A stretch of 64,000 nucleotides of DNA. Origin: an uncultured Clostridium sp. GTDB taxonomy: Bacteria; Bacillota; Clostridia; Lachnospirales; Lachnospiraceae. The notes under the pieces are model-generated. The model was not told the DNA's origin. It did no database searches and was given only the letters and a program-made list of their open reading frames with translations. Shown piece after piece: positions 20,223-64,000 of this stretch. The stretch is taken from contig CAMMNN010000005.1 of assembly GCA_946498245.1 (NCBI GenBank), positions 1 through 64,000 of the forward strand, read 5' to 3'. Made by a program: the position numbers and the translations under genes. Numbering within the stretch: position 1 is the stretch's first letter; every line of letters starts with the position of its first letter.

Positions 20223-20224
20223 GG

Positions 20225-22216: not shown

Positions 22217-22235
22217 TGCCGTATCCTCCCTCTGG

Positions 22236-23027
22236 CTAAAATTGCTTTTGGTACTTCATCAAGATTACCGTCGTATTATCCTGGCTTCTTCCCGCACAGG
22301 CTTCTGACATTCGTAAAAGCCGATCCGCCGCGATTTCCATGTCCAGATCGTTATCTCTGACCATGGCAAAAATCTGCCGGCTATTCATGCACTTATACAG
22401 CCCGTCGCTGCACAAAAGGACAATATCCCCGTCTTCCAGCTTTGTCTCATAAAGTTCTGCCCGGGCCACCCCATTCATGCCAATAAAGCTGATAAGGGCC
22501 TCCGCCTTTGGGGTATTAATCTGAAGTTCATATTCTTTTGGGGAAATGGCTCCTGACTTCAAATCCTCATGGAGCTTCAGCCGGTAATTGTGCTCCGGCG
22601 TAAGGGCCTGGATTTCCCCTCCCCGGATCAAATAGATCTTGCTGTCCCCGACAGACAGATAACTCAGCCTCTCCTGACAGATTAGGGCTGCCACCATTGT
22701 CGTCCCGGCCTTCAGCCGTTTTCCCTCCTGATTCTTTAAAGCCGCCACTTCCCTGTCCGCTTTGGCGAGCTCCTCCTCAAAGAAAGGAAGGATCTGCTCC
22801 CTGGGCCGTTTCTTCTCGTAATCCTCCGCCAGTATTTCCACTGCCGTCCTGCTGGCCCTTTCTCCTCCGTTCAGCCCTCCCATGCCATCGCACAGAATGC
22901 CAAAAGCGCTGTCGCTGTCGGTATACAGATAACCGTAATCCTGCTGGTACTCCCTTGTCCCGATTATGCTTCCTGCTCCCACATCCAGGTGAGCCGCAAA
23001 ACCGGCTGCCCTTTTTACGATATTCAT
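22236..23027 (-). CDS. PP2C-type protein phosphatase
   Basis: GILCDGMGGLNGGERAS, YLSVGDSKIYLI, LLCSDGL. Confidence 0.93.
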   Translation of the reverse strand: MNIVKRAAGFAAHLDVGAGSIIGTREYQQDYGYLYTDSDSAFGILCDGMGGLNGGERASRTAVEILAEDYEKKRPREQILPFFEEELAKADREVAALKNQEGKRLKAGTTMVAALICQERLSYLSVGDSKIYLIRGGEIQALTPEHNYRLKLHEDLKSGAISPKEYELQINTPKAEALISFIGMNGVARAELYETKLEDGDIVLLCSDGLYKCMNSRQIFAMVRDNDLDMEIAADRLLRMSEACAGRSQDNTTVILMKYQKQF

Positions 23028-24160
23028 TCCCTTACCCCTACTACAAACTCAAATTTCCGGTTTGCCAGATAGATTTTTGCCGGCAAAGCGACCAGGATCT
23101 CCCTGCCTTTGGCAATCCTCCTGTTGTTGACAAAGGTTCCGTTTAAAGATGTATCGCAGATTTTCAGCTTGTCTGCTCTTTCGTCATAAGAAACCCGGCA
23201 ATGCCTCCGGCTGACGTCCCGCTCCGGATCCCTTAATACCAGATCATTTTCCTCGCCCCGGCCGATACTGATTTGGCAGTCGCCCCAAAACTCTATGGGC
23301 CGGCTTTTTATTCCCTGAAAAGTCCGTTGGAAATACAGGATTTTGCGGCGGGATTTCTCACCAAACCGCAGTCCTCCGGCAAAATCCGCCATTGTCTGGG
23401 TTCTCTCTTCCGGATAAAGCTTCAACGCGTTATCTACTGCGTCTGAGATCCGTCCCTCTGCTTCCGGGCACAGGCGAAACAGCGGAGCATAGCCTTCTCC
23501 CTTCTTTCTTTCCACCGCCGGCGGAATCCGCCTGCCGGTCAAAAGGTAATAATAACTTGCCGCCAGAGAGTACACGTCTGTAAAACGCCCCTGCTCCCCG
23601 TTATAAATCTGCTCTAACGGCGCGTACTCCGGTTTGGCTTCCTTGGGAATCCTGTCTTTGCTGTCAGATAAGTAAACTGCGGAGCCAAAGTCAATCATTT
23701 TAATCTCCCCGCTGTCGGTTAGGAAAATATTTTCCGGCGTCAGATCCCGGTGCAGAATCCCCGCCCTTTCATGGCAGGCATCGGCATATTCCGCCGTTTT
23801 CCGGATCAGATCCGTTATTTCCCGAAACCCGAACTTTCTCTGTTTGGTCCTGTGTCCCAGAGTGTCTCCCTCCAACAGTTCCATGGTATAGTACGCCCCT
23901 TGATTCTCTTCAAAATAGCTGCCGTACCGGACTACCCCGGGATAGCCTGTGAGCCCTTTCAGAATAGATGCCTCCCGCCGGAACTGCTCCAGTCTGCCTT
24001 CTTTCTCTTCTTCCTTTTCCCCAGAGCCGGAAAATGTATATTTTTTTACCGCGCACATGGCTTTTAGCTGCCTGTCGTAAGCCCGGTATACTGTTCCAAA
24101 CCCTCCGCTGCCTAAAACGCCCCGTATTTCATACCGGCCATCTGCCAGGACTTGTTCCAT
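23024..24160 (-). CDS. Ser/Thr protein kinase with C-terminal FHA domain
   Basis: GSGGFGTVY, HRDLTPEN, DFG; FHA ISIGRGEENDLVL…VSRRHCRV…NGTFVN. Confidence 0.93.
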   Translation of the reverse strand: MEQVLADGRYEIRGVLGSGGFGTVYRAYDRQLKAMCAVKKYTFSGSGEKEEEKEGRLEQFRREASILKGLTGYPGVVRYGSYFEENQGAYYTMELLEGDTLGHRTKQRKFGFREITDLIRKTAEYADACHERAGILHRDLTPENIFLTDSGEIKMIDFGSAVYLSDSKDRIPKEAKPEYAPLEQIYNGEQGRFTDVYSLAASYYYLLTGRRIPPAVERKKGEGYAPLFRLCPEAEGRISDAVDNALKLYPEERTQTMADFAGGLRFGEKSRRKILYFQRTFQGIKSRPIEFWGDCQISIGRGEENDLVLRDPERDVSRRHCRVSYDERADKLKICDTSLNGTFVNNRRIAKGREILVALPAKIYLANRKFEFVVGVRE

Positions 24161-24165
24161 TGCTA

Positions 24166-25812
24166 TCACCACCTAATCCGTATCCGGACCGGTCCCGCCT
24201 GTATGCTGTCTCCTGATGCCACCGCCGTCTTCTTTCCGGGCTCCGCCGCCTTTCCGTTAAGGCGGGTTCCGTTTTTGCTTTTCAGATCCGTCAGATACAG
24301 CCGTTTTCCCTTTCTTTCCAGCAAAAAGTGAGGGCTGGACACCCGCGGCTCGTCTATCCGGACGTCACAGTCCATTCCCCGGCCAATTACCAGGCTGCCC
24401 GCCATTTTCCACTGAGTATTGACAGTGGGCTTTCCTTCCATGGAAATCTCCGCATTGACCACAAAGTCCTTCTGCGGTTCTTTTTCCTTATCGGTCCGTT
24501 TTTTCAATTTCCCTACAGCGGCTGCCACTGCCGCCGCCAGAATCAGCACAGCCAGGACTAACAGGAGAATGGGGCCTGAATTGTCTTCCGGTTCCGGCTC
24601 TTTTTCCACTACCGCTTCAATGGTCACGCTGTTTTGTACCGGATTCTTTTCCATAGAGTTATCTGTAATGTTGATACACTCCACATAGTACGTTCCGGTC
24701 TGCAAATCTTCGCCCAATGACAGAAATACGGAATCCGTCCCCGGCTCTCCCTGAGAAATTCCGCTGACGGCTACTCTTTCTCCGTTTAATGTAACCTGGT
24801 AATTGGAAAGGTCCTCCGAGCCCAAAACCGGTTCGCTAAAGCGAATCCGCATCAGCCGGTCCCCGGCAATCTCTCCCTCTTCCATAGCCGGAGCCACGTT
24901 ATCTGGAATCCATCTGGAATTAATGACCTCCATGGACAGGGTTCTGTCGGACTCCTTCAGATGCAAGGTTACAGTATCTCTCCTATTGGTGACCCGGTTT
25001 CCGTCAGATGAAAATTTCAGCTCCCTCATATTCAGCAGTTCATCCGTTAAATCTGACGACGCCTGAAAGATACCGCCTTTTTCCAGGAGAACCAGCTTTC
25101 CCCCTGTATTGCGTGCAAATTCCCCGAAGCTGTTTATATTGCTTCTATCCGTTTCCCCAATGCACATGGCGTACAGTGGGATTCCCTTATCCTTTAAATT
25201 GGCCAGGGCCTCCTGGGCCTGCTTTTTCCCTACGGCAATATCCTCTCCGTCAGAAAAGACCACCATAACCCGCCTGCGGCACTCCTCCGCCTTCACGCCC
25301 TCTGCAATGCTGCTCATCTGGGCCATAGCTTCAAAGAGCAGGGTCTGCTGATCCCCATTGTCCAGACCATTGAGGATCTCTTCCAGACGCGCCTCATCCT
25401 GGCTGCCGTCGCTTAAAAGCCGTACTTCCTCCCCGAAGGCACACAGCACCAGCCGATCCTGCGCCCTCAAATTTTCTTGTATTTCTAAAATCCCGCTTTT
25501 GATTTCGGAAAAATAGGCGTCAGGAATGGAGCCGGAAATATCCAAAAGCACATAATAATAAATGGCATCCCCTGTTTCCTGAAAGGTTTTATCCCAGATG
25601 AAGTCCAGACGCTCCTCTCCCAGATACGCTTCCATCTGGCTGCCGTCTGTGCCTGCGAACTCTCCGTACAAGTAGACCTCCGGGAGATTCGTATATACGC
25701 TTTCCAAGCTCTCCGTATTTTCATCAGATAAAATCTGTCCGCCATTTTCCTGAAGGACATCTTCCGCCATTATAGGCTCCCATTCTCCTATACTGATTCG
25801 TCCCATCTGCAT
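24166..25812 (-). CDS. VWA - TM - FHA protein
   Basis: MIDAS VLLDISGSIPD; TM ILLLVLAVLILAAAVAAAV; FHA VIGRGMDCDVRID…KNGTRLNG. Confidence 0.9.
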   Translation of the reverse strand: MQMGRISIGEWEPIMAEDVLQENGGQILSDENTESLESVYTNLPEVYLYGEFAGTDGSQMEAYLGEERLDFIWDKTFQETGDAIYYYVLLDISGSIPDAYFSEIKSGILEIQENLRAQDRLVLCAFGEEVRLLSDGSQDEARLEEILNGLDNGDQQTLLFEAMAQMSSIAEGVKAEECRRRVMVVFSDGEDIAVGKKQAQEALANLKDKGIPLYAMCIGETDRSNINSFGEFARNTGGKLVLLEKGGIFQASSDLTDELLNMRELKFSSDGNRVTNRRDTVTLHLKESDRTLSMEVINSRWIPDNVAPAMEEGEIAGDRLMRIRFSEPVLGSEDLSNYQVTLNGERVAVSGISQGEPGTDSVFLSLGEDLQTGTYYVECINITDNSMEKNPVQNSVTIEAVVEKEPEPEDNSGPILLLVLAVLILAAAVAAAVGKLKKRTDKEKEPQKDFVVNAEISMEGKPTVNTQWKMAGSLVIGRGMDCDVRIDEPRVSSPHFLLERKGKRLYLTDLKSKNGTRLNGKAAEPGKKTAVASGDSIQAGPVRIRIRW

Positions 25813-25820
25813 TCCTCTCC

Positions 25821-26555
25821 CTACTCTATCCAGATCCCAATGGCCGAGTAGTTATCCATATCCCGTCTTTTCCCGTTTTTCAAAACGATTTTTTCCATTT
25901 GTTCCAGCCATTCCCTGGGACTCTCCGCCTTTCTCAGACAGGCCTCCATCTTTTTTTCTTCTATTAATTCCCAGAAACCGTCGCTGCACAACAAAAAAGC
26001 CTGACCCGGACAAATCACTGTCGTGTCGGCTGTTTCAAACTTCAGTTCCTCTACCGTTTCTCCCAAAGCCCGGAGAAGCCTGTTCCTGTCTGGGTGGTTT
26101 CGTATTTTTTTCTCTTTTAATTCTCCCGCGTTTACCAGCATCTGGGGAACGCTGTGATCCAGGGTTCTCCCTGTAACCCTGCCATTTTGGAATGTATAAA
26201 GTCTGGAATCGCCGATATGGCCCCATTTGGCTGTTTTTTCCCAAATTTCCAGCACTGTCAGGGTCGTCCGCATACCCATGGTTCTCCGGTCCTGCCGCTG
26301 CCTTTGGATGATTTCCTCCTGGGCCAGACGGAAACGGCTTCCCATGTCCCAGACTCCTCCGGCTTCTTCACATTCTGCGGCAAAACTCTCAATGGCTGCC
26401 TTCACTGCCAGCTCTGAAGCCAGTTCCCCATTGCCGTGGCCTCCCAAGCCGTCCGCCAGGGCAAAGCAGTAAGCGTCGCCCACTTGATACATTCCCACGT
26501 GATCTTCGTTGTATTCCCGATCTCCGTTTCTGCTAAGCAGATCAAACAATACCAT
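25821..26555 (-). CDS. PP2C-type protein phosphatase
   Basis: ALADGLGGHGNGELAS, WGHIGDSRLY, LLCSDGFWE. Confidence 0.93.
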   Translation of the reverse strand: MVLFDLLSRNGDREYNEDHVGMYQVGDAYCFALADGLGGHGNGELASELAVKAAIESFAAECEEAGGVWDMGSRFRLAQEEIIQRQRQDRRTMGMRTTLTVLEIWEKTAKWGHIGDSRLYTFQNGRVTGRTLDHSVPQMLVNAGELKEKKIRNHPDRNRLLRALGETVEELKFETADTTVICPGQAFLLCSDGFWELIEEKKMEACLRKAESPREWLEQMEKIVLKNGKRRDMDNYSAIGIWIE

Positions 26556-26621
26556 TTTTATCTTCTCCTTATAACCTGTGTCCTCCCAAAAGGGAGAACA
26601 CAGGCGATTACGCTAATGCTA

Positions 26622-27503
26622 TTATTCGATGTCCAGCCGGAAACCGTTGCGTTTGCTTGCAAGATAAATCACCGTTCCCCGTCCCACGCGTTTTGTCACG
26701 CCATTTTCCAGACGGGTTCCGTTTTCCAGGTAAGTTCCCAGTTTGGAGCAGTCCGTAATATAAAAGTCGTTGGTATTCATGTCGTAGCGTACTCTGCAGT
26801 GAACCCTGCTGATCTCATCCTGGTACTGGTCAAATACGATCTGGCAGTCTGAAGAAGAACGTCCCATAGTGATTTCCTTGCCATCGCTAATGTCAAAATC
26901 CGCCCCCTCATACTGACCGGCAATTCCGCAGATATAGGCCTTCTCCCGGGGGATCGCATCATTTTCAGAAATATCGCTGATGCCTCCTGAGGATTTCACT
27001 ACCACATCGGAAAATCCAATGAGCATCTTAAACACCAAATCAACGGTTCCAAAACCAGGAATAATCACCAACCAGGCTGTGTTGGGATTAAAGCGGAATT
27101 TCCCGTAAAATTTCCGGTAAGCCAAAAATGTAAAAATGAAGATGGCAATCCAGTATGCCGCTAAAATAATAAAAGGAAAGAGCAGCCCCTTGGTCAGCAG
27201 CACTAAAACCACTCCTAAAACAACGGTAATGACCCCTGTAATCAGGCCGGATTCTGAAAACAGGAAAATATACCACCAGGGAGCTTCCGCTATCCTCATA
27301 AAATAAAGCTGTCTGGCAACAGGCAAAAAGGGCATCCAATCTCCGTCAACCCCTGCCTTCTTTCCGATACACATATAAGCGTATCCCATAAAAAGGTATG
27401 AACCTAAAAGCGCCAAAACCAGCACAATCCAATATGTACTTAAAAAGGCTCCGATTAAATCAGGCAGATCCTCTATCATACTCATTAAATCATAATAACT
27501 CAT
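26622..27503 (-). CDS. Multi-TM protein (DUF5684-like) with C-terminal FHA domain
   Basis: Several TM segments; FHA TMGRSSSDCQIVF…ISRVHCRV…GTYLENG. Confidence 0.82.
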   Translation of the reverse strand: MSYYDLMSMIEDLPDLIGAFLSTYWIVLVLALLGSYLFMGYAYMCIGKKAGVDGDWMPFLPVARQLYFMRIAEAPWWYIFLFSESGLITGVITVVLGVVLVLLTKGLLFPFIILAAYWIAIFIFTFLAYRKFYGKFRFNPNTAWLVIIPGFGTVDLVFKMLIGFSDVVVKSSGGISDISENDAIPREKAYICGIAGQYEGADFDISDGKEITMGRSSSDCQIVFDQYQDEISRVHCRVRYDMNTNDFYITDCSKLGTYLENGTRLENGVTKRVGRGTVIYLASKRNGFRLDIE

Positions 27504-27515
27504 GTTTTCTCCCCC

Positions 27516-28178
27516 TTACTCCTCATTGTCCTGGGCCGTCCAGGTAAATTTATCATCGCAGCACGGTATCAGCATAAGGGAAACGTTTCCCACCTGAATG
27601 ATGTCATTCTTTTCCATGCGTCTCGGCTCCAGCACCACTTCGTCCTTTAAGTAAAACAGCTCTCTGGAATCTCCGGGTTTAACGATAAATACATTCTGTC
27701 TTGGCTCGTAAATAATAGCGGCATGGCGCTTCCTGGAAACAGACTTTTCATCAGCCAGACAAATATCCATGTCCCAGTCTCTTCCAATGAAATTGCAGCC
27801 GGTTTTCAAGCTGAAATCCTTCCCTTTCATCCGTCCCTTGACACAGATCAGCCATCCTACTGTCGGCTGGATATTCTCTTCTCCTTCATGATTCGTAAAA
27901 ATGCTGATGGTCTTGGCGTCGTCTTTGTCTGCCGGCTCTTTTATATCCTCTTCCGGTTCTCTTAAAGGCCGGGTTTCCGGCTCGCTGTCGTATCCCGGTA
28001 TCCCCTGTCCCGGCATTACCGCCACGTCGTTCTTCTCTTCTACCCAGGAAGTTGTGACATTCTCCTTGGGCTTTTCTCCTCTTTCCCCGGCGCAGTGAGG
28101 ACAGCTTGCATATTTATTGGCATCATAGTAATGCCCCTTCGGGCACCGGATATTCCGGATAGCATTGGGCTTGCTCAT
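27516..28178 (-). CDS. Zinc-ribbon FHA adaptor protein
   Basis: CPKGHYYDANKYASCPHC; FHA FIGRDWDMDICLADEKSVSRKRH. Confidence 0.85.
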   Translation of the reverse strand: MSKPNAIRNIRCPKGHYYDANKYASCPHCAGERGEKPKENVTTSWVEEKNDVAVMPGQGIPGYDSEPETRPLREPEEDIKEPADKDDAKTISIFTNHEGEENIQPTVGWLICVKGRMKGKDFSLKTGCNFIGRDWDMDICLADEKSVSRKRHAAIIYEPRQNVFIVKPGDSRELFYLKDEVVLEPRRMEKNDIIQVGNVSLMLIPCCDDKFTWTAQDNEE

Positions 28179-52632: not shown

Positions 52633-54759
52633 TCAGTATCTCATCTTCTCCTCATACTTGGAAATCAGATCCCGGTTGGCCTTTTCATAGGAGTTAAGAT
52701 AAGTATCATCATTAAATTGGCTTGGCTCTATGGTTCCTCTGTACCAGGGCTGGGAATCAAAATACTTCTGAAGGGCTTCATCCGTAAATTTTCTGCCGTG
52801 TCTGGCATAGATTTCGTTGCGGCCCAGACGCAGAGTTTCCGCCGACAGCCCCGTCAGCTCTGATTCCCTCATATACCGGGAGTCGCTGTCAGGGAAAATA
52901 TACTGAGACTGAGACTGCGTTTCCTCTGTACTTTCGATTACCTCCACCATTTCGTCATTTTCCCAAAGGCCGGTTTGGGAGGTTCCGTCAGTATAGTACA
53001 TGGTCCCTATTCCCTCTCGTCTGTCGTTAGCCCACTCGCCTTCATACCGTTTTCCGTCGCTCCAGGTGTAAAAGCCTACGCCGGATTTAATGCCGTTTTC
53101 CCATTCTCCTTCGTACACGTCTCCGTTGCTCCAGGTGTAAGTCCCTACGCCGGACTGCTCGCCGTCTTCCCATTCTCCTTCGTATGTGTCCCCGTCGCTC
53201 CAGGTATAAATTCCTGCGCCCTGGCGAATGCCGTTTTCCCATTCTCCTATATAAGTCGCCCCGTCATTATAATACTGACTTCCTGTGCCGTGCCTGTGAT
53301 CGTCTTTCCAATCGCCTTCGTAATATTCTCCGTTTAACCATGTCAGAGTCCCGGTTCCGTCCCGTTTTCCATTCTTCCAGTCGCCAATATACTCTTTCAG
53401 GCCATTTTCAGTTTCTCCGTAAGTACAGATGCCGAAACCGTCCAATACTCCGTTTACCCTGACGCCCTGATACTGATGTCCTGCGCTGTCCGTCCAGGTC
53501 TCTATCTGGGCTTCCGCTTCCGCTTCAGCCTCTGTCTCTGCCTCTGTCGTCCGCCTTTTTGCTGCAGTGGTTTCTTCATCACTATCAAAATCAATCCCTA
53601 TATCAATGTCCAGGGTTTCGACAAAACCGGAAGTTTTTACGTCTTTGGGTTCTTTGGACTCCGATGGCCAGATAGCAACCGACAGGCCGATAGCTGCACA
53701 AAGCCCTACGGCAAATCCAGCGATTTTTGCAGCGCCAATACCTTTTTTCTTGATGATAGGTTTCGGATCTTCTGTGGCCTCATAAAGTCCTTTATACAGA
53801 TCTTCCATAGTCTGATACCGGTCTTCCATTTTAACGGCCATACCCTTTTTTAACGCCTGTACCTGTTTTTTCGTCATCTGGGCCTCCACGTCATCAGGAA
53901 GCCGGGTATCGTCATGCTCCTGGCGTTCCAGGGCCTCTTTGGGAACCTGGCCCGTCAGGCAGTAGTACATCGTCGCACACAGCGCATGTATATCCGTCCA
54001 GGGGCCGATATTGCCATGGCTCAGGTATTGCTCAATGGGGGCATAGCCGTATTTCAGCAATATGGTTACAGATGCCTCTCCGTCGGGATTTGTAGTATGG
54101 GCTGCCCCGAAATCCATAAGCTTTAAGGTATTATCCGGCATCAGCATCAGGTTGTCAGGGCTAATATCCCGGTGGATCAGTCCCATTTCATGGACTTTCG
54201 AAAGGGTCTTTACAATGGGCTTCATCAGATCCAGCAGCTCTTTAGGAGGAATCCGTCCTCCCTTGCGGGCCGTATATTCTTTCAGGGTGATTCCCTGAAG
54301 GAGCTCCATGACAATGTACGCCGTGTTGTTCCCCTGAAAGTAATTCTGAACCTGGACGATCTGGGGATTGCCTGAAAATTTAGACAGGATTTGGGCCTCT
54401 TTTTCAAATCGCCGCTTTCCTTTGTTAAAGTACTCTTCCTGAGGGCCTTGGTAGCTGATAACTGAGCAGGAAACCGAGGTATCCCTGGTTACAGCGCCGC
54501 TTGGATAATACTCTTTAATAGCAACGGCCCGATCCAGGTTTAAATCCCAGCCAATATAAGTAATTCCGAAACCTCCCTGGCCCATGACTTTTCCTATTAC
54601 ATAAGCCCCGTTTAAAATTGTCCCCGGGCGAAGCTGATGGACGGACGGCGGAAATTTTTCTGTACAGTACCCGCAGTGGGGGCAAACCTCCTCCCCATTG
54701 GTTTCCTTCATGCAGCCGAAGCATCGGTTAAATACATAATCCATAGCGTTCCCTCTCAT
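52633..54759 (-). CDS. Ser/Thr protein kinase: zinc ribbon - kinase - TM - MORN repeats - YARHG domain
   Basis: CFGCMKETNGEEVCPHCG; HRDISPDN, DFG; YEGEWENG-type MORN repeats; GRNEIYARHGRKF YARHG motif. Confidence 0.93.
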   Translation of the reverse strand: MRGNAMDYVFNRCFGCMKETNGEEVCPHCGYCTEKFPPSVHQLRPGTILNGAYVIGKVMGQGGFGITYIGWDLNLDRAVAIKEYYPSGAVTRDTSVSCSVISYQGPQEEYFNKGKRRFEKEAQILSKFSGNPQIVQVQNYFQGNNTAYIVMELLQGITLKEYTARKGGRIPPKELLDLMKPIVKTLSKVHEMGLIHRDISPDNLMLMPDNTLKLMDFGAAHTTNPDGEASVTILLKYGYAPIEQYLSHGNIGPWTDIHALCATMYYCLTGQVPKEALERQEHDDTRLPDDVEAQMTKKQVQALKKGMAVKMEDRYQTMEDLYKGLYEATEDPKPIIKKKGIGAAKIAGFAVGLCAAIGLSVAIWPSESKEPKDVKTSGFVETLDIDIGIDFDSDEETTAAKRRTTEAETEAEAEAEAQIETWTDSAGHQYQGVRVNGVLDGFGICTYGETENGLKEYIGDWKNGKRDGTGTLTWLNGEYYEGDWKDDHRHGTGSQYYNDGATYIGEWENGIRQGAGIYTWSDGDTYEGEWEDGEQSGVGTYTWSNGDVYEGEWENGIKSGVGFYTWSDGKRYEGEWANDRREGIGTMYYTDGTSQTGLWENDEMVEVIESTEETQSQSQYIFPDSDSRYMRESELTGLSAETLRLGRNEIYARHGRKFTDEALQKYFDSQPWYRGTIEPSQFNDDTYLNSYEKANRDLISKYEEKMRY

Positions 54760-56399
54760 TCATCTGCAGTGGGGCCTTCTCCTTCTGTCCAATGAATCCG
54801 GTAGTCAGAAGATCCCATTCGTATTACATCATCACATTTAAGAACATAAGGCTGGGATATGGGAATCCCGTTTACCTGAGTTCCGTTGGTAGAGTTTTGG
54901 TCACAGAGAACCAAATCCCCGTCGCAATCCGCCAAAATACAGTGAAGACCTGACAGTTGAGGATCTTCAGGAAAAACGCAATCTGCTTTTTGAGGCGATC
55001 TGCCTATGGAGATCTGGCCTTTGATGGTGATGCGGTAGGTCACTTCCTCCGCCATACCGATTCTCGTCAGGTAAACTTCCCTTCCTGCCGGTTCCTCTGC
55101 TCTCTGTTCCGGAATCTCTTCTTCCTTTTTTTCTTCCTCAAAAGTCTCTCCGCTATCTTCCGGTTCTTCTGCCTCTTCTTCCGAAATCTCTCCTGTGGCG
55201 GACTCCGGCAAAGGCTCTGGTTCCTCCGGAAGCGGGATCTCTATCTCCTGTTTTTCCTCTGCGGCTTTTTTCTTTTTCCTCTTTATAAAAATCACCGCGC
55301 ATATTGCCGCCAATATCACTGCGGCTCCTCCGGCAATGGCCAGGACTTCCATTGGAGGCCCACTTTCTTCTGCCGGCGCCGGCTCCTCCGGCGGCGGGGC
55401 GGCAGAGCTTTCCTCCTCCGGGGCGGATTCCTCAGGGGCCGGTTCTGTTTCCGGAACGGAAATATCCCCTGCCGGGAGCGAATATCCGTCTGACGCTTCC
55501 CCTCTTCCTTCGTCCGTCAGGGAAATCTGCAGATAATTTTCGCCGGAAGACGGGGTATAACCGGAAAGATCTCCATGAATGATCAGGCTGTCCGCCATAA
55601 AAGCCGCCACCTGACCGACGCTTTCCTCCGGAGAAAGGTCGTCAATTCCCAGGGCCGTGTGGATTCCTCCCGGAGAGAGTCTGGCAAAGCTTCCCAGGAC
55701 TTTAGCAAATTCAATGCTGCTTTCGTCGGCCCCTGATTCCAGGACTGCCGTAGTAAAAATGGGAATGCGGGAGATCTCAATCTGGCGGTTTACCTCTTCT
55801 CTGGTAATGCCTGCCGCCTGATCGTCCTCTCCGTCAGACACCACTACCAGACCTCTGCGGTAGTCCCCGGTACTTCCGGCGTCCAGAACCTTTAATGCCT
55901 CTGTAATCCCGTAATACAGGTTTGTATCTTCCCCAATTACCTGAATGCCGTCAATGCTCTCCAGGATTTCCTCTTTATCAGAAAGGAAGGGCCCTATGGT
56001 GAGATTGTTTCCCAAGGCGGCGATACTGACCTGATCCTGCTCCGGAAGCTGCTGGACAATCAGTTTCAGATAATCCTTCATCTCCTCCATCTGGGCCCGG
56101 GGAATGGATCCGGAAACGTCTGCCAAAAAAATCCAGGACGCTCCCTCTTTTGTATCTCCGAAACGCTCAATTCCCTTTATAGGAATTTCCTCACCGCCAA
56201 GGCTGATTTTATAGTGCTCCGCCGCCGCCTTTTTCTCCGCTTCTAAGTTATTGTTTACATAAAGCAGCAGCTCCCCGTCAGCAGACCGGCTGTTTTCCAG
56301 GTGGACTTCCAGGGCTTCCGACGCTGCAGCCGGAAATGACGCAATCATTGCCGCTGCCACGCAGAGCAGCAAACCTAATTTTCCTTTTCTTCCCCTCAT
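54756..56399 (-). CDS. Secreted VWA - TM - FHA protein
   Basis: Signal peptide, MIDAS FLADVSGSIPR, TM VLAIAGGAAVILAAICAVIFIKRKKKK, FHA SIGRSPQKADCVF…STNGTQVNG; ATGA overlap with upstream PP2C. Confidence 0.9.
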   Translation of the reverse strand: MRGRKGKLGLLLCVAAAMIASFPAAASEALEVHLENSRSADGELLLYVNNNLEAEKKAAAEHYKISLGGEEIPIKGIERFGDTKEGASWIFLADVSGSIPRAQMEEMKDYLKLIVQQLPEQDQVSIAALGNNLTIGPFLSDKEEILESIDGIQVIGEDTNLYYGITEALKVLDAGSTGDYRRGLVVVSDGEDDQAAGITREEVNRQIEISRIPIFTTAVLESGADESSIEFAKVLGSFARLSPGGIHTALGIDDLSPEESVGQVAAFMADSLIIHGDLSGYTPSSGENYLQISLTDEGRGEASDGYSLPAGDISVPETEPAPEESAPEEESSAAPPPEEPAPAEESGPPMEVLAIAGGAAVILAAICAVIFIKRKKKKAAEEKQEIEIPLPEEPEPLPESATGEISEEEAEEPEDSGETFEEEKKEEEIPEQRAEEPAGREVYLTRIGMAEEVTYRITIKGQISIGRSPQKADCVFPEDPQLSGLHCILADCDGDLVLCDQNSTNGTQVNGIPISQPYVLKCDDVIRMGSSDYRIHWTEGEGPTADE

Positions 56400-57145
56400 A
56401 AACCGTTTTCCTCCCTCATACAAAACAGGGCTGCCGCCGTATAGTTGTCATTTTCCCCCTGTTTCTGCATTTTTGCCACCTTTTTCCTTAAACGTTCCTC
56501 CATACAGGCCAGCCACTTCTGGGGCGTATCCGCTTTGGACAGGTCGATTTCCATCTCATCTTCCAAAACGTATTCCCAGAATCCGTCTGTGCACAGCAGA
56601 AAGGCGTGAAACCCCGGTTCCAGCAGGCCAATGCTTTTAATTTCCGCCTTTACCTCTTCCTCTGCTCCCAGAGCCCTTAAAACCCGGTTCCGATCCTCAT
56701 GGAAACGGATCTGGGCCGGGGTAATCTCCCCTGCCATTACTGCCATCTGGGAAACGCTGTGATCTCTGGTACAGAAAACCATCTCCCCGTCAAAGAAATG
56801 GTACAGCCTGGAATCTCCTATGTGGGCCCACATAGCTTCGTCCCCTTCTAAAAACAGGGCGACACAGGTGGTTTTCATCTTGCAGGCCGGAGTCTGGCAG
56901 GCCAGTACTGCTTTATTGGCTTTGTCATACAGGGTCTGCACAGACTCCGGATCCATTTTTCCGCCTTCCCGGAATCCTTCCGTTACCATCTCCACAGCCG
57001 TCTGGGACGCCGTTTTCCCCCCTCCGTGGCCTCCCAGCCCGTCGGCTACTGTCAGGCAGCACCGGCCTTCTGAAACGTACCACTGGACGCTGTCTTCATT
57101 GCAGGCTCTTCCGCCCTGACAGGAAATCTTTCCCAATTCAACCAT
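56396..57145 (-). CDS. PP2C-type protein phosphatase
   Basis: TVADGLGGHGGGKTAS, WAHIGDSRLY, LLCTDGFWE. Confidence 0.93.
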   Translation of the reverse strand: MVELGKISCQGGRACNEDSVQWYVSEGRCCLTVADGLGGHGGGKTASQTAVEMVTEGFREGGKMDPESVQTLYDKANKAVLACQTPACKMKTTCVALFLEGDEAMWAHIGDSRLYHFFDGEMVFCTRDHSVSQMAVMAGEITPAQIRFHEDRNRVLRALGAEEEVKAEIKSIGLLEPGFHAFLLCTDGFWEYVLEDEMEIDLSKADTPQKWLACMEERLRKKVAKMQKQGENDNYTAAALFCMREENGL

Positions 57146-57157
57146 TCGTTTATCCTC

Positions 57158-58381
57158 CTAAATCTCCACCTCAAATACTTCTTCCTTCCCTAAAGAGAGC
57201 CGATCCCCGTTTTTCAGCCGGCATTCCCCGCCTCTGGGAAGGGGCCGCCCGTTAATCCATGTACCGTAGGTGGAGTTCAGATCCTTTAATATCATAGCGT
57301 TTTGCTTTTGATCGCAGATGACCTGGCAATGGACTCCGCTGACCCCTTTGGTTCCGGGGGGAAACACCAGTTGGCATACTCTTGCGTTCCGTCCCAAAAT
57401 GGCAATGTCTTCTACTGTCACATCTGCCCCTTTATAGCAGCCTCCCACACAGTGAAGCCGGATTCCCTGGGACATTCCTGTTAATTGCTGCCGGAACTGC
57501 CTTACCGTCTGCTGTCTGTCTTCAGGGAGAATAGAAAGGGCTTTCACAATGGCGTCTGAGGCCCCTTTGGGAATCCCCGGACTATAGACCTCCGGGGGCT
57601 TCAGGGTATCCTGCATCATTCGCTCCGGCGCTTCCGGAACCCTCTGCCCTGTAAGGATCTGATAAATGGTGGCCGCCAGGGCGTAAATGTCCGTCCATGG
57701 CCCCTGGTTGCCCCTCCTTCTATACTGCTCTAAAGGAGCAAAACCCTTTTTTAAAATAACGGAGAAGCTTCGGCTTTCATCAGCCAGAGCCTGCCTTGCC
57801 GCGCCAAAATCAATCAGCTTGACGATTTTATCCCTTCGGATAAAAATATTGTCCGGACTAATATCCCGATGGAGAAGATTCTTTTCGTGAACGTATTCCA
57901 GGGCGTCTATAACGGGAAGCAGAAGGGACAGCATCTCCTCATAGGAAAGCCTTCCGCCCTTCTGCTTCAGATACCGTCTCAGGTCCATTCCGTCTAAATA
58001 TTCCATAACATAATAGGCCGTATTGTTCTCTTCAAAATAGTCGAATACGTGAACAATATTGGGGTGGCTGTTAAGCCGGTATAACGTTCTGGCCTCGTCC
58101 CCAAACCTCTCTTTTCCGTAAGAGAAGCCTCTCTCGTCCTGGACAGCGCTGACCCTGAGCGTTCCCGGCGTCCTCACCGCAATTCCGCTTGGCATAAATT
58201 CCTTCAGAGCCACTTTTCTCTCTTTTTCCAAATCAACACCCAAATACGTAATTCCGAAACCGCCGAAGCCCAGCATATCCCCAGTCAGATATTTCCCTTT
58301 TAAAATCGTTCCTGCCGGAAGAGCGAAGGACAGTGTCTGGTTGAACCCCTCCATTTTCATTCCTTTTTCTCCTACAGGCAC
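57158..58381 (-). CDS. Ser/Thr protein kinase with C-terminal FHA domain
   Basis: GFGGFGITY, HRDISPDN, DFG; FHA ILGRNARVCQLVFPPGTKGVSGVHC…STYGTWING. Confidence 0.93.
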   Translation of the reverse strand: MPVGEKGMKMEGFNQTLSFALPAGTILKGKYLTGDMLGFGGFGITYLGVDLEKERKVALKEFMPSGIAVRTPGTLRVSAVQDERGFSYGKERFGDEARTLYRLNSHPNIVHVFDYFEENNTAYYVMEYLDGMDLRRYLKQKGGRLSYEEMLSLLLPVIDALEYVHEKNLLHRDISPDNIFIRRDKIVKLIDFGAARQALADESRSFSVILKKGFAPLEQYRRRGNQGPWTDIYALAATIYQILTGQRVPEAPERMMQDTLKPPEVYSPGIPKGASDAIVKALSILPEDRQQTVRQFRQQLTGMSQGIRLHCVGGCYKGADVTVEDIAILGRNARVCQLVFPPGTKGVSGVHCQVICDQKQNAMILKDLNSTYGTWINGRPLPRGGECRLKNGDRLSLGKEEVFEVEI

Positions 58382-59478
58382 TCCAAAATCACTGCTGTAT
58401 AATTGTCCTGGGTCTTTCTGTTTTTATCCCGGATCATCTGATCCATAATACTGCCGCTTTCCTCGATTGGGGCCTGCATAGCCAGAATCATTTCCTCATC
58501 ACTGAGGGTTCCGAAAATACCGTCGCTGGCTAAAATAATCCGATCCCCGGTTTTCAGCTTTAGGGGTCGGATATTCCGGTCAATCTGGGACAGTTTTCCC
58601 ATGCCGATAAAGCTGGTCAGGGCCTTCCTCTGGGGATCCCCTGCGGCGCTGGCAAAGCTGATTTCCCCTTTTGCAGCCCGTTCATCTAAAAGAGCTCCGT
58701 ATACATGATCCCGGTTTATCTGCATCAGGGAGTGATCCCGGTATAAATAAATGTGGCTGTCGCCTACGGAAATCCAGTACAGGTTCATATCTTTTATGAG
58801 AACCGCCGTCAGTGTGGAGCCGCTTTTCCCTTTTCCGCTTTCTCCCAGGAACTCATTAACCTTCTGATTGGCCTCTCCCAGCATCTGCAGCAGCTCCTTC
58901 TCCGGAGACGCCGCCATGGGGTTCTGATCAAAATACTGCATCATAGAAAGGGTGACCATGGCGCTGATTTCTCCGCCCTTTGAAAGTCCGCCCATACCGT
59001 CGGCAACAATAGCCAGAACTCCTTTTTTCCTGCCCTCTTTGCCGTCCAGATCCGAGATGCCGAAAGAATCCTGCTGGCTGCTTCTCTTTCCAATATTGTG
59101 GACCTTGCCTGCGTAGATTCCCTGAGGACGCCTTGGGGAAACGCTGTTTGGAATGGCTTCTGTCTTTATTTTCAGGTCCTCCTCCTGGATTATCTCGTCT
59201 TCCGCCGTTTCCGGTTCCTCGTCTTCTCTGTCCTGCTTCCTTCTCTTCACCCAATACAGGCCGGCAAGGGCCAGCAAAAGGGCGGCGAGAATCGCTCCGA
59301 AGATCCAGATTTTTCCCGGAACATTTCCCGGCGCTCCTCCGTCAGCGTTGGCGGGAGTCGCCTCCCCCGCCAGTTTTCCTTCTAAAATATCCGTAATTTC
59401 CTCCTGAGCCTCAGTCTCTGCTTCCTTTTCTGCATCTTCCGGGTAATTCCAGAAAATATCAGCCATGTCCATTTTCAT
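58372..59478 (-). CDS. Membrane-anchored PP2C-type phosphatase
   Basis: TM IWIFGAILAALLLALAGLYW; AIVADGMGGLSKGGEIS; SVGDSHIYLY; start trimmed from 59559 to an ATG near the upstream stop. Confidence 0.9.
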   Translation of the reverse strand: MKMDMADIFWNYPEDAEKEAETEAQEEITDILEGKLAGEATPANADGGAPGNVPGKIWIFGAILAALLLALAGLYWVKRRKQDREDEEPETAEDEIIQEEDLKIKTEAIPNSVSPRRPQGIYAGKVHNIGKRSSQQDSFGISDLDGKEGRKKGVLAIVADGMGGLSKGGEISAMVTLSMMQYFDQNPMAASPEKELLQMLGEANQKVNEFLGESGKGKSGSTLTAVLIKDMNLYWISVGDSHIYLYRDHSLMQINRDHVYGALLDERAAKGEISFASAAGDPQRKALTSFIGMGKLSQIDRNIRPLKLKTGDRIILASDGIFGTLSDEEMILAMQAPIEESGSIMDQMIRDKNRKTQDNYTAVILECL

Positions 59479-60130
59479 TATTCGTCCACTCAAACCTTTC
59501 TCCGCACAAGGGTATAAAAAGAAGCTGAGTTTTTCCAATTTCAATAATGTCATAGGCATTCAGCTCCGCCGTAGTCAGCATGGCCTTTCCATTGAGGCGC
59601 ACAATGCTCCTTCCGTCACCTCTGGAAAAATAAAACAGTTTATCCCTTGTATCATAGCTGATTACCGCGTGGTTGACCCGGGAAATGGTTTCGTCTCCGC
59701 GGATACAAATATCCATCTGTTCCCCTCTTCCAATAAAATTGTTGTCTGAGTGGATCCGGTAATCCCGGCCTTTTTCCTTTCCGTTAAGGCTTACCAGCCA
59801 GCCCACGACGGGATCGATTCCCATTTCAGCCTGCATCACAGCCACCGTAACGCCCTCTGTCTGTCTCTGGCCTGCGCCTCCCGTAATAGGAAGGGTCGCT
59901 CCGCTGCCGCTCAATGGGAGAGTCGCCCCGCTGCTCTGTACCGTGCCGCCCCAGCCGCCTGCAGGCGGCACGGTAGCTCCCATAGACGGGGAAACGGTAC
60001 CGGAAGAATCAAAAATGCCTTCCGTAGCCCCAAAAGCCGCCCCGCCTTCCCTCAGCTCCTTACAGGTAGGGCATTCCTGGTAAATCGATCCATCGTAGTA
60101 ATGGCCTTCTTTGCATTTCTTCAGCTCCAT
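59459..60130 (-). CDS. Zinc-ribbon FHA adaptor protein, paralogue of 27516..28178
   Basis: CKEGHYYDGSIYQECPTC; FHA FIGRGEQMDICIRGDETISRVNH. Confidence 0.87.
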   Translation of the reverse strand: MELKKCKEGHYYDGSIYQECPTCKELREGGAAFGATEGIFDSSGTVSPSMGATVPPAGGWGGTVQSSGATLPLSGSGATLPITGGAGQRQTEGVTVAVMQAEMGIDPVVGWLVSLNGKEKGRDYRIHSDNNFIGRGEQMDICIRGDETISRVNHAVISYDTRDKLFYFSRGDGRSIVRLNGKAMLTTAELNAYDIIEIGKTQLLFIPLCGERFEWTNNENGHG

Positions 60131-60151: not shown

Positions 60152-61510
60152 TTATAAAGACACGGAAAACAAATTGCTTTCTCCGCCCAGATAAAACTTT
60201 ACCTGATTGGTCAGGCGGTACGGCACGTTAGGTTCCAGCTTCTTTCCGCCCTTAAAATACGTTCCATATGTAGAATTTTTATCAATCAATACCGGAATCC
60301 CGTCTTTCCACCGGATCTCACAGTGGACCGAGCTGACTCCCCTGGTATCTCCCGGGAAGCAGACCTGGGCCCTGGTTTTATCGCGCCCAAAAACAAGAGT
60401 TTCCGAAGGCCCTATCCGAAACTGCCGTCCGTCTAAGATCCCTCCTACCGCTGTTATAACAAGACTGGCCGCCGGACTTGCCGCTGCTGCCGGACTTGCT
60501 GCCGCTCTGGAAGGAGCCGGCGCCTGCTGCCTGCTGATATAGATCATTTGCCGGATGCTCTTCCTCATTACAAATAGAAGCAGCGCCCAGCCCAAAACAG
60601 TCAGAACAATTTTATCAATATACATACTCTGAAGGCGCAGGAAAAGCAGAATCCAGGATTCCGGCAAAAGCCCATAGAGATAGAGCCAGTTAAAATTCCA
60701 GGCCGTATGAAGCAGGAAGGCCGCAGACCATGTGGCAATAACCAGCTTGTTAGCCAAAAGAGAGGCTTTCATCTTCCCTCTGCCCTTTGCCAGTCCCAAG
60801 GCCCCTCCATAGAGGGCGGCCCAGACTACGTGGCCTCCCGGGGAAAGAAGGGAACGGGAAACTATCACCTGAGTTACAGAAGCAGTCCCGTCCAAAAAAT
60901 ACTCCCAGGCATATCCCGCCGACTCAATGGCAGAAAAGCCTACTCCTACGGCGCCTCCAATTAAAATCCCCTGAAGGCCGCTGTAGTACTTATCTCTGCT
61001 CAGAAGCAGATACACAATGGCAAGTTTCGCTATTTCCTCCGGAAGAGGGCCTGCCAGAAACGCTATGTCCGGAATATCAAAAAGATTTCTCACAACGCCT
61101 GTAACCGTCAGAGAGAGCAGCCCTCCCAAAAGTACCATAAAAAGCATCTCATACAGAGAGACATCTCCTGCAATGTTCATCTCCCAAAATAAGATGGCCG
61201 CCGCCAGAGGGAGGACAAAGGCAGGAATTACGAAAAGCATTACACCCATAGCGTAGCTGGAAAAGATGTTCCAGCTTGCCAAGATAATCAGAGACAGCGC
61301 AATGCCTATTCCCGCCACCCGGAGAAACAGCCACGGTTTCTGCCATTGATCCAACATCTGACTGGGCCGGGGCACATTATCCCCAATTCCTTTGGTCAGA
61401 AGCTGGTTTAATTGTTTCCGGCTGTGGGGTTTGGCCATGTCGGAAAAAATGTCCTTCCAGGTAAAATTCGCCTTGACGTCAGCGGCCTTATCAAAAAATA
61501 CGGTATTCAT
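60152..61510 (-). CDS. PrsW-family intramembrane protease fused to C-terminal FHA domain
   Basis: Multi-TM; PLPEEIAKLAIVYLL, GFSAIES, GHVVWAALYGGALG; FHA VFGRDKTRAQVCFPGDTRGVSSVHC. Confidence 0.88.
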   Translation of the reverse strand: MNTVFFDKAADVKANFTWKDIFSDMAKPHSRKQLNQLLTKGIGDNVPRPSQMLDQWQKPWLFLRVAGIGIALSLIILASWNIFSSYAMGVMLFVIPAFVLPLAAAILFWEMNIAGDVSLYEMLFMVLLGGLLSLTVTGVVRNLFDIPDIAFLAGPLPEEIAKLAIVYLLLSRDKYYSGLQGILIGGAVGVGFSAIESAGYAWEYFLDGTASVTQVIVSRSLLSPGGHVVWAALYGGALGLAKGRGKMKASLLANKLVIATWSAAFLLHTAWNFNWLYLYGLLPESWILLFLRLQSMYIDKIVLTVLGWALLLFVMRKSIRQMIYISRQQAPAPSRAAASPAAAASPAASLVITAVGGILDGRQFRIGPSETLVFGRDKTRAQVCFPGDTRGVSSVHCEIRWKDGIPVLIDKNSTYGTYFKGGKKLEPNVPYRLTNQVKFYLGGESNLFSVSL

Positions 61511-61522
61511 TTTTCCCCTCCT

Positions 61523-62722
61523 CTATACAATGCGGAATGTGTTGTCCCGTACAGCCAGATAAAATTCGTCCCCTTTATTTAAACGTACAGGCTGGTTGGG
61601 AGAAAGCTTTGTACCGTTTCCCAGAAAAGTTCCGTAAGAGGAGCCTAAATCCGTAATAACCGCTCCGTCTCCCCCTGCTTCCAACTGGCAGTGGACACCG
61701 CTGACCCCTTTGGTATCTGCCGGATAGCTGACAGAGCAGCGCTTCTTATCCCGCCCGAAAACCAGTTTTCCTGAAATGGGAATGGTTTTTCCGCCGAAAT
61801 ATCCGCCGAGCCCCTGAACCGCCAGAGAAGCTGAGCCAACTGACTGCAGGACAAATTCTTCCTCTCCCGCCACTCTCCGCTGAGCCTCGTCATTGAGATA
61901 GGATACAAAACTGACAATAAACACAATCCCCATAATGGGAATCAAGGCCAGAAAGAAACTGCTGCCTCCCGTTACTGTCGTTAAAAGACCCTGGCTTAAA
62001 ATATCCTCTGAGTTTCCGCCTCCGCCGGAACTTCCCGCGCCGCCGAATCCGCTTCCGCCAGAGATTCCTCCATTGCCGGATCCGCTGGGTTCCGTACCGA
62101 AAAGGGCTGAGGACAAAATAAACTCATCATCACTTATGAGGATTCCGGCCAAATCCCCGTTTTCACAGAAGACAGGGCCTCCTGCCATTCCTGACGCCAG
62201 ATCCGTTATAGTGGCAAATATGGGGCTTTCCCTGTTTTCTATCTGCCCCAAACTGGTTTCATACATCACCATAGATGCCGACAGGTTTTCTACGTCCAGA
62301 TTTGGATCTTGAAAGTTAATGCCAGCTACATATAAAAGCTGTCCCGCTGTCAGATCTGCCGTTGTCTGGTTTATGGGGTGGCCGCTTTTTCCCGACGCAT
62401 CAGGTACCAGGGTGATTCCGTATTCCGGCATCGCTGACCAACTGGCAGTCGGCCGTATTTCACCGTTTCCCTCCACTATCATGAGCTGATCCGCCGCATC
62501 CACAGTGTCTGCGCAGGGCATGATAATGATTTTTCCCTGGGCCCCGGTGTCTACCCGGTAGCCGTTAAAAATTGCCGTCATCTCGTCGCTGCCTTCCATA
62601 GACGCCATGAGTACGATATTGTCCTGCCAATCGGCTGCCTGGGATGCAAAAGCCGCCGAAGCTGCCGTCAGGCAGAAGACGGCGCAAAAGACAGCGGCTG
62701 CCCGCTTTCGTGCTTTTCCCAT
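61523..62722 (-). CDS. Secreted degenerate trypsin-like domain - TM - FHA protein
   Basis: Signal peptide; GMAGGPVFCENGDLAGIL; TM FFLALIPIMGIVFIVSFVSYL; FHA VFGRDKKRCSVSYPADTKGVSGVHC. Confidence 0.8.
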   Translation of the reverse strand: MGKARKRAAAVFCAVFCLTAASAAFASQAADWQDNIVLMASMEGSDEMTAIFNGYRVDTGAQGKIIIMPCADTVDAADQLMIVEGNGEIRPTASWSAMPEYGITLVPDASGKSGHPINQTTADLTAGQLLYVAGINFQDPNLDVENLSASMVMYETSLGQIENRESPIFATITDLASGMAGGPVFCENGDLAGILISDDEFILSSALFGTEPSGSGNGGISGGSGFGGAGSSGGGGNSEDILSQGLLTTVTGGSSFFLALIPIMGIVFIVSFVSYLNDEAQRRVAGEEEFVLQSVGSASLAVQGLGGYFGGKTIPISGKLVFGRDKKRCSVSYPADTKGVSGVHCQLEAGGDGAVITDLGSSYGTFLGNGTKLSPNQPVRLNKGDEFYLAVRDNTFRIV

Positions 62723-62740: not shown

Positions 62741-63166
62741 TTACAGTTCAAAGGGATTTGCCTTCACTCCGCTGCTTCTCCCCTGATACTCGCTGCCTTC
62801 CCATCTCCCGTCAGGCCCTACCCAGTAGCCGTCAGGAGTCGTGGTATTGGTCAGCATAACCCCGTCTTTTCCGAAATAGTACGTTTCATAGACCCAGGAA
62901 TTGTAGGCCATAGTTCCATTCTCATGGAAGAAATATTTATCTCCGTCCAATATCAGCCAACCAGTGCACATATACCCGTCTTCGTCAAAGTAGTACCACT
63001 GTCCGCCAATGCGTTCCCAGTCGTTTACGGGATAGCTGCCGTCCCTCTTCTCATACCACCAGCCGTTTTCCGTCTGATTCCAGCCCTGGGCTCCATACGC
63101 CGTAAATGTCAGGGCACTCAGGGAGCAGAGAAGGGCGGCCAGACCTATTTTTATTCTTCGCGACAT
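62741..63166 (-). CDS. Short secreted cell-wall-binding repeat protein
   Basis: Signal peptide; NGWWYEKRDGSYPVNDWERIGGQWYYFDEDGYMCTGW. Confidence 0.85.
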   Translation of the reverse strand: MSRRIKIGLAALLCSLSALTFTAYGAQGWNQTENGWWYEKRDGSYPVNDWERIGGQWYYFDEDGYMCTGWLILDGDKYFFHENGTMAYNSWVYETYYFGKDGVMLTNTTTPDGYWVGPDGRWEGSEYQGRSSGVKANPFEL

Positions 63167-63178
63167 ATCCTTCCCTCC

Positions 63179-64000
63179 TTATATTCCAGCCTGTATTCCT
63201 TCATCTACAGAGTAGCAGTTCTCCAAATCCCGGACTTCCCCGTCCAGATTGAAGGAATACGCCTCATAGGTATAGGGCGTCGCCTCGTCGTCCTTAACAC
63301 GGAACCAGACTATGTCGTCCGCCACGCTAAAGCTTTCCACGGTTCCTTCAATTCCTTCTACCAAGGTTTCCGTTTCCTCTGTGGCCAGAGAAAATCTTCC
63401 GATAGATTGGTTTTTAAAATTGGCAAAATAAAGCCATCCATCAGTAATGCCTAAAATATTGCTCTCCGGAACGAAGCTGTTCCGGAACTCCCGCATCTGG
63501 TTTCCCTCAGCGTCCATTTCTATAATAAAGTCCTGGGTATCGGCGTAAATCCGTCCGTTATAGGCCCTTACGCGGTAAACGGTTTCTTCATCATAGAGAA
63601 GAGCAGGCTCTCCCGGCTCTTTATAGGGCAGTTTATAAACCTTGTTATTTTTCGTAAAGAATACATTTCCGTCTTCTACTATCATATTAGTAGTAATCCG
63701 GGTATCTTCGTCTGTAGCGTACAGGCACTCTTTTTCCCCTGTTTCCGGATCCATGCGGAAAATTCCCTCAGGATTTTTGAAAATCAGGACATCATTTACC
63801 AATGTAAGATTATAGGCCACCGTATCGTCAGCTAAAACAGTCAGCTCATCCGTTTCCAAATCCAGGCTGTAAATCTTTTCCGTATCGGTAAAGAACCACG
63901 CCTTGCCATCGTATACGTTGAGATCCTGCACTCTTCCGTTATACAGAAGCTTAAAACCGCCAGCGCTGCTTTTATAAAGCTTTCGCGCCGAGTCCGTAGT
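63179..64000 (-). CDS. DUF5050-like beta-propeller protein, truncated by window edge
   Basis: Frame stays open past the supplied GTG start at 63931 to the window end; repetitive VxNGRIYxDT/GWLYFAN strand motifs. Confidence 0.65.
   Translation of the reverse strand, partial: TTDSARKLYKSSAGGFKLLYNGRVQDLNVYDGKAWFFTDTEKIYSLDLETDELTVLADDTVAYNLTLVNDVLIFKNPEGIFRMDPETGEKECLYATDEDTRITTNMIVEDGNVFFTKNNKVYKLPYKEPGEPALLYDEETVYRVRAYNGRIYADTQDFIIEMDAEGNQMREFRNSFVPESNILGITDGWLYFANFKNQSIGRFSLATEETETLVEGIEGTVESFSVADDIVWFRVKDDEATPYTYEAYSFNLDGEVRDLENCYSVDEGIQAGI

Follow-up and report, generated by a model that had tools for sequence, protein, structure and literature searches.

Eukaryotic-like kinases and intramembrane proteases constitute two major routes of transmembrane signalling in bacteria, and they are usually studied apart. 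In case of the intramembrane protease PrsW of Bacillus subtilis, four motifs have been described, namely E75E76xxK79, F110xxxE114, H138 and H175xxxD/N179 (as summarised in PMC12943098). Fusions of PrsW to FHA, PilZ, cNMP-binding and zinc-ribbon domains were predicted as signalling peptidases in 2012 (Biol Direct 2012, PMC3482391), and the PrsW-FHA fusion and its likely signalling role are already stated there. PilZ-PrsW LIC_20173 of Leptospira represents a related architecture class (PMC12943098).

The gene dealt with here lies on a contig of an uncultured, gut-type Clostridium sp. of the Lachnospiraceae, of which 64,000 nucleotides (the window) were analysed. From the letters alone, it had been read as a PrsW-type protease fused to an FHA domain, with proteolysis possibly gated or recruited by Thr phosphorylation from neighbouring kinases (the original prediction). 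All features are compiled in Table 1.

Table 1 Features of the PrsW-FHA locus, given as positions in the window
Feature	Position	Strand	Evidence
PrsW-FHA protein, 452 aa (N-terminus, PrsW core, A/P/S linker, C-terminal FHA)	60152..61510	-	
PrsW-protease domain, residues 122-280	60671..61147	-	Pfam 2.4e-27; genome search gives identical span
E158-E159 of EExxK (motif 1, PLPEEIAK, with K162)	61034..61039	-	
H227 (motif 3, GHVVW)	60830..60832	-	
H268 of HxxxN (motif 4, HTAWN = H268xxxN272)	60707..60709	-	
A/P/S-rich disordered linker APAPSRAAASPAAAASPAAS, about residues 330-349	60464..60523	-	Sequence; pLDDT <50 at 330-346
FHA domain of PrsW-FHA, residues 373-442	60185..60394	-	Pfam, PDB fold matches
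Kinase-like-TM-DUF5050, 979 aa, first operon gene	63179..64000, continues beyond window to contig base 66118 (L068 1-2118)	-	
Choline-binding-repeat secreted protein	62741..63166	-	
S1-like-TM-FHA: signal peptide, HtrA/DegS-like S1 domain without catalytic triad (GMAGGPV), TM, cytosolic FHA	61523..62722	-	
Zinc-ribbon-FHA protein, candidate phospho-scaffold, downstream of PrsW-FHA	59459..60130	-	
Zinc-ribbon-FHA linker with GATEGI, GATLPL, GATLPI, GVTVAV	59801..60061	-	
TM-anchored PP2C phosphatase	58372..59559	-	
Soluble Ser/Thr kinase-FHA	57158..58381	-	
PP2C phosphatase	56396..57145	-	
VWA-TM-FHA protein	54756..56423	-	
Ser/Thr kinase-TM-MORN-YARHG, receptor-type kinase	52633..54759	-	
Second, paralogous FHA/kinase/PP2C/VWA cassette	17002-28178	-	

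Domain architecture and predicted topology

The open reading frame starts with ATG, with AGAGGAGGGG just 5' of the start codon. Both domains of the original prediction were recovered by Pfam above their cut-offs, PF13367 with 96.2 bits (cut-off 23.5) and PF00498 with 40.5 bits (cut-off 20.7; 3.7e-10), and functional residues are conserved in both. According to profile search, the protein is the sole PF13367 member in the genome assembly. The three PrsW motifs named originally, PLPEEIAK, GFSAIES (F192xxxE196) and GHVVW, are present with their expected residues, as is the low-complexity linker, while the fourth motif, H268xxxN272, had been overlooked; all four are found in the window's protein. 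In the FHA domain, GR and SxxH are retained and the usual NxxNG reads YG.

Structure prediction with AF2, suggested as a check along with the original prediction, gave a helical membrane part and an FHA-like beta-sandwich (pLDDT 80, pTM 0.67). The best PDB matches of the beta-sandwich in Foldseek include the FHA domains of FhaA, OdhI, GarA and MDC1. Since the PDB matches listed for the model are of FHA type only, with none for the PrsW core, assignment of this core rests on sequence and AF2. Eight transmembrane helices are predicted from the AF2 helices and loop charges, and the PrsW motifs are located within such helices. Applying the positive-inside rule, the N-terminus, loops 171-177 and 243-254 and the C-terminal FHA domain would lie on the cytosolic side; combined with the AF2 helices, the same rule would place EE, H227 and H268 on the side of the outer leaflet.

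Distribution and conservation of PrsW-FHA

Of 397 sampled genomes of the family, 9 encode full-length PrsW-FHA; the source genome is one of them, and the orthologues in the eight others share 29-60% identity. Wider scans of named genomes, together with a class search, gave 34 PrsW-FHA loci. Based on these orthologues and loci, PrsW-FHA is not a chance open reading frame. A single-protein scan of genome contigs returned no relatives, and an alignment scan recovered them. Neither PrsW-FHA nor the operon's kinase-FHA gene had a match in three further genomes from the genus. Altogether, the comparison covered 39 PrsW-FHA proteins, which belong to Lachnospiraceae, Oscillospiraceae and Selenomonadaceae; cultured carriers include [Clostridium] asparagiforme DSM 15981, with locus L103 on CP102272, and Murimonas intestini DSM 26524, with locus L096. 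A search for a mobile-element origin gave no full-length plasmid match, and this origin was rejected.

Across this set, EExxK is invariant in 38/38 proteins (one truncated copy of the 39 lacks the region), FxxxE is likewise invariant, and both H227 and H268 are conserved in 39/39, with position 272 being Asn in 31 and Asp in 8. Judged from its intact motifs, PrsW-FHA is best explained as an active-type intramembrane protease. The FHA residues are similarly well kept, with the Arg (R376 of the window's protein) present in 38/39, the Ser in 39/39 and the His in 39/39. In 30 of the 39 proteins, including that of the window, the Asn of the NG motif is replaced by Tyr (position 415), which may weaken or alter phosphopeptide binding by this FHA domain.

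A tree of the PrsW cores groups 51 FHA-less proteins into a single clade (SH-aLRT 100). The two remaining FHA-less entries, L091 and one L119 copy, group among the PrsW-FHA proteins and are apparently frame-split. The tree is consistent with one PrsW-FHA fusion event, in a sample drawn by similarity to PrsW-FHA. Tandem PrsW-FHA duplicates occur in L104, L105, L106 and L119, one further L119 copy apparently being frame-split. One protein (L057:5410-6849) is a PrsW-FHA with an additional N-terminal zinc ribbon, which suggests that the FHA domain was joined onto a zinc-ribbon PrsW lineage.

The FHA/kinase/PP2C cassette

The PrsW-FHA gene sits in a 10-gene operon (52633 up to contig base 66118) with intergenic distances of -101 to +21 bases, in the order kinase-like-TM-DUF5050, choline-binding-repeat, S1-like-TM-FHA, PrsW-FHA, zinc-ribbon-FHA, TM-PP2C, kinase-FHA, PP2C, VWA-TM-FHA and kinase-TM-MORN-YARHG. 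The product of the first gene is an apparent pseudokinase receptor, as HGK replaces HRD and DFG is absent from its sequence. With local variation, the cassette recurs in all nine genomes of the first set. In the wider set, 27/34 PrsW-FHA loci have a kinase nearby (counted within about 9 kb), 28/34 a PP2C and 29/34 a further FHA protein, and 6 of the 7 kinase-less loci are confined to stretches of 4-8 kb. In contrast, none of 51 FHA-less PrsW loci has a kinase, PP2C or other FHA protein nearby (Fisher p 5e-16 for the kinase linkage); L091, the one exception among FHA-less loci, is apparently a frame-split PrsW-FHA cassette. The kinase link of the original prediction is thus borne out as a conserved Ser/Thr kinase and PP2C neighbourhood, while the protease-like/TM/FHA partner and the relation to a second cassette in the window had escaped it. 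Assignment as a defence system was rejected, with PADLOC matches being generic kinase/PP2C and none spanning PrsW-FHA.

The second cassette encodes a PASTA-type kinase, a kinase with large extracytoplasmic domain, PP2Cs, kinase-FHA, VWA-TM-FHA, multi-TM-FHA and zinc-ribbon-FHA proteins as well as a 306-aa apparent pseudokinase. Here, the Pfam-less multi-TM-FHA protein (26622-27503), one of several with three to four TM helices and an FHA domain whose membrane part is of unknown type, stands in the place of PrsW-FHA. Further PrsW-less sister cassettes carry an intact S1-TM-FHA (L071, L073, L075, L084, L088), DUF805-FHA (L072) or other such 3-4 TM-FHA proteins, and DUF805-FHA adjoins PrsW-FHA in the Selenomonadaceae locus L107. 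One sister cassette contains an FHA-FHA-ABC transporter (L078:9923-12211), an arrangement of the M. tuberculosis Rv1747 kind. In one genome, a dynamin-like GTPase-FHA fusion and a second dynamin-like protein are encoded beside the cassette (L061:11199-13064 and L061:13701-15839).

The S1-like-TM-FHA partner

The S1 domain encoded directly upstream of PrsW-FHA was assigned from a Trypsin_2 match below the Pfam threshold together with family context. Its predicted ectodomain fold (AF2/Foldseek; moderate model, pLDDT 68) has RsgI9 S1C, DegS and HtrA1 among its best matches. Where the His-Asp-Ser triad is expected, D/G/A are aligned, and by its sequence the window's protein is a pseudoprotease. 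The triad is intact in 18 of 24 S1-TM-FHA proteins and degenerate in the window's clade, the L096 paralogue and L100. S1-TM-FHA directly precedes PrsW-FHA in 10 loci. Because it is also found in 5/20 PrsW-less cassettes and is not significantly enriched with PrsW (Fisher p 0.24), S1-TM-FHA was ruled out as an obligate PrsW substrate. RsgI9, an anti-sigma factor acting in an intramembrane-proteolysis pathway, has an ectodomain that is protease-like and binds polysaccharide (PMC12203970), and by analogy offers a precedent for a protease-like ectodomain serving as sensor on a cleaved membrane protein.

A threonine array as candidate FHA ligand

The linker of the zinc-ribbon-FHA protein carries repeated Thr motifs of the form [G]xTx[P/A][VIL], an expression composed after the linkers had been inspected, and up to 9 of them per linker occur in its relatives. 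Across 53 non-redundant linkers, V/I/L/M/F/Y stands at +3 in 195 of 368 Thr compared to 82 ± 8 in shuffled linkers (0 of 2000 shuffles reach the observed value), a test which overstates independence because linker Thr share descent and repeat expansion. The signal survives stricter redundancy cuts, counting identical hexamers once and removal of 25 FHA-adjacent residues. It is specific for Thr, as Ser in the same linkers has a hydrophobic +3 residue at background level (74/346), and Pro is found at +2 of 28% of linker Thr versus a background of 9%. Motif density amounts to 2.2 per 100 aa in these linkers, compared to 0-0.8 for the remaining FHA linkers of the cassette. The array is common to zinc-ribbon-FHA relatives of both PrsW and non-PrsW cassettes. 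In its sequence, it matches known bacterial kinase-site and FHA preferences: PknA-dependent phospho-Thr sites of M. tuberculosis feature Leu/Val in the +3 position and Pro at +2 (PMC7164672), and binding and selectivity of FHA domains are influenced by the pT+3 residue (PMC5549992).

Proposed mechanism and alternative readings

The arrangement of the operon suggests that phosphorylation may set where and when PrsW-FHA cuts, and we infer array phosphorylation, FHA docking, cleavage and the likely substrate as follows. The cassette kinases would phosphorylate Thr residues, above all the repeated sites of the zinc-ribbon-FHA protein, and the FHA domains of PrsW-FHA, S1-like-TM-FHA, kinase-FHA and VWA-TM-FHA would dock on the phosphorylated array. 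Docking would cluster PrsW-FHA with single-pass membrane proteins of the same cassette, one of which PrsW-FHA would cut near the outer membrane face; its most likely substrate would be the protease-like/TM/FHA sensor or a receptor kinase. Both PP2C phosphatases would reset the circuit. The probability of this scheme as a whole, from Thr scaffold to cleavage of a membrane partner, is estimated at roughly 45%. Recruitment by Thr phosphorylation, as originally proposed, keeps its place as the best explanation and gains a candidate ligand.

A possible but somewhat more tentative generalisation is a phospho-Thr code at the membrane, which receptor kinases would write on the zinc-ribbon-FHA scaffold and which swappable FHA effectors (PrsW, HtrA-like protease or pseudoprotease, ABC transporter, DUF805 and others) would read, so that phosphorylation instead of a site-1 cut would aim proteolysis. 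If the scheme is true, the kinase and intramembrane-protease routes would be joined in one operon via a phosphothreonine reader, and roles would be suggested for many uncharacterised FHA/kinase/PP2C cassettes of gut Clostridia. The Thr array would then also predict specific phosphosites, making the kinase-protease link directly testable.

Phosphothreonine might also act without a multi-site scaffold. The FHA proteins GarA and OdhI switch through intramolecular phospho-binding, and modelled on them, the FHA domain could gate PrsW in cis via a phosphosite on the same protein or a single kinase; the last Thr motif beside the FHA domain of the zinc-ribbon-FHA protein has a comparable position. The PrsW-FHA linkers, however, make this rather unlikely: that of the window contains no Thr, 33 of them, with 908 aa in total, jointly contain only 24 countable Thr along with 7 motifs, and a disordered linker is better suited to tethering than to rigid coupling.

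The original prediction had drawn an analogy to PrsW of Bacillus, which cleaves an anti-sigma factor, RsiW in case of B. subtilis (PMC4602095). PrsW-FHA would then make the site-1 cut in an anti-sigma factor whose gene lies elsewhere in the genome, with FHA as phospho-switch, and the genome does encode one zf-HC2 protein (C7:41002) along with at least 14 sigma-70 region-2 matches. This analogy did not find support, as PrsW-FHA scores 30.4 bits against a cut-off of 225 bits for the NCBIfam equivalog of the RsiW-cleaving type (NF033739), and no zf-HC2 or sigma factor lies within the conserved cassettes among the matches listed. The nearest sigma factor among these matches (G114:C10:39694) is about 5.7 kb off, outside the cassette and in one genome, and the PrsW-FHA genomes G130, G780-G783 and G785 gave no zf-HC2 match. 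Hence, an anti-sigma role is quite improbable, and less likely than phosphorylation-directed docking.

Considering that FHA tags many unrelated modules in the sister cassettes (DUF805, ABC transporter, unknown 3-4 TM proteins, dynamin), PrsW-FHA could also process a secreted peptide or other precursor, or be a proteolysis-dead membrane anchor, with the output of the cassette lying elsewhere, such as in envelope homeostasis or secretion. A dead PrsW is at odds with the full conservation of all its active-site motifs, which contrasts with the loss of the triad from the adjacent S1 domain in the window's clade, and no small precursor-like ORF was seen to recur beside PrsW-FHA in the overall cassette gene content, leaving both variants improbable as well. 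Finally, a PrsW polymorphic-toxin export module as described in 2012 shares the N-terminal PrsW and C-terminal appended domain, but is practically discarded, as the appendage here is a constant binding domain, neither toxin nor polymorphic, and PMC3482391 itself keeps FHA fusions apart from toxin fusions.

Comparison with known systems

No paper found in the open-access literature searched reports the cassette, its S1-FHA pairing or the Thr array, and cassette and array appear undescribed there. PMC3482391 and PMC12943098 deal with the same architecture class, without mention, in the portions used here, of the kinase/PP2C/VWA cassette, of a paired S1-TM-FHA or of a Thr-array scaffold. With B. 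subtilis PrsW (PF13367), PrsW-FHA has in common EExxK, FxxxE, H and HxxxN/D, a multi-TM core and a predicted intramembrane active site; it differs in its C-terminal FHA domain, its longer cytosolic N-terminus and a locus in which no RsiW-type anti-sigma factor was found. Regulated intramembrane proteolysis of the DegS/RseP type likewise places an HtrA/DegS-like TM-anchored domain beside an intramembrane protease, but here both proteins carry a cytosolic FHA domain, and the window's S1 domain is a pseudoprotease, with intact triads occurring in other clades. RsgI9 of Clostridium thermocellum, the closest PDB fold to the window's S1-like ectodomain (7sjy), is in contrast an anti-sigma factor of opposite membrane orientation and without FHA. 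As in the cassette described here, GarA/OdhI, FhaA and Rv1747 of Actinobacteria are FHA proteins wired to PknA/PknB-type kinases; FhaA is multiply phosphorylated at 23 sites (PMC7164672), and Rv1747 is an FHA-tagged ABC transporter, as in L078. Compared to these, one FHA partner of the present cassette is a protease, and its candidate scaffold combines a zinc ribbon with a repeated Thr array.
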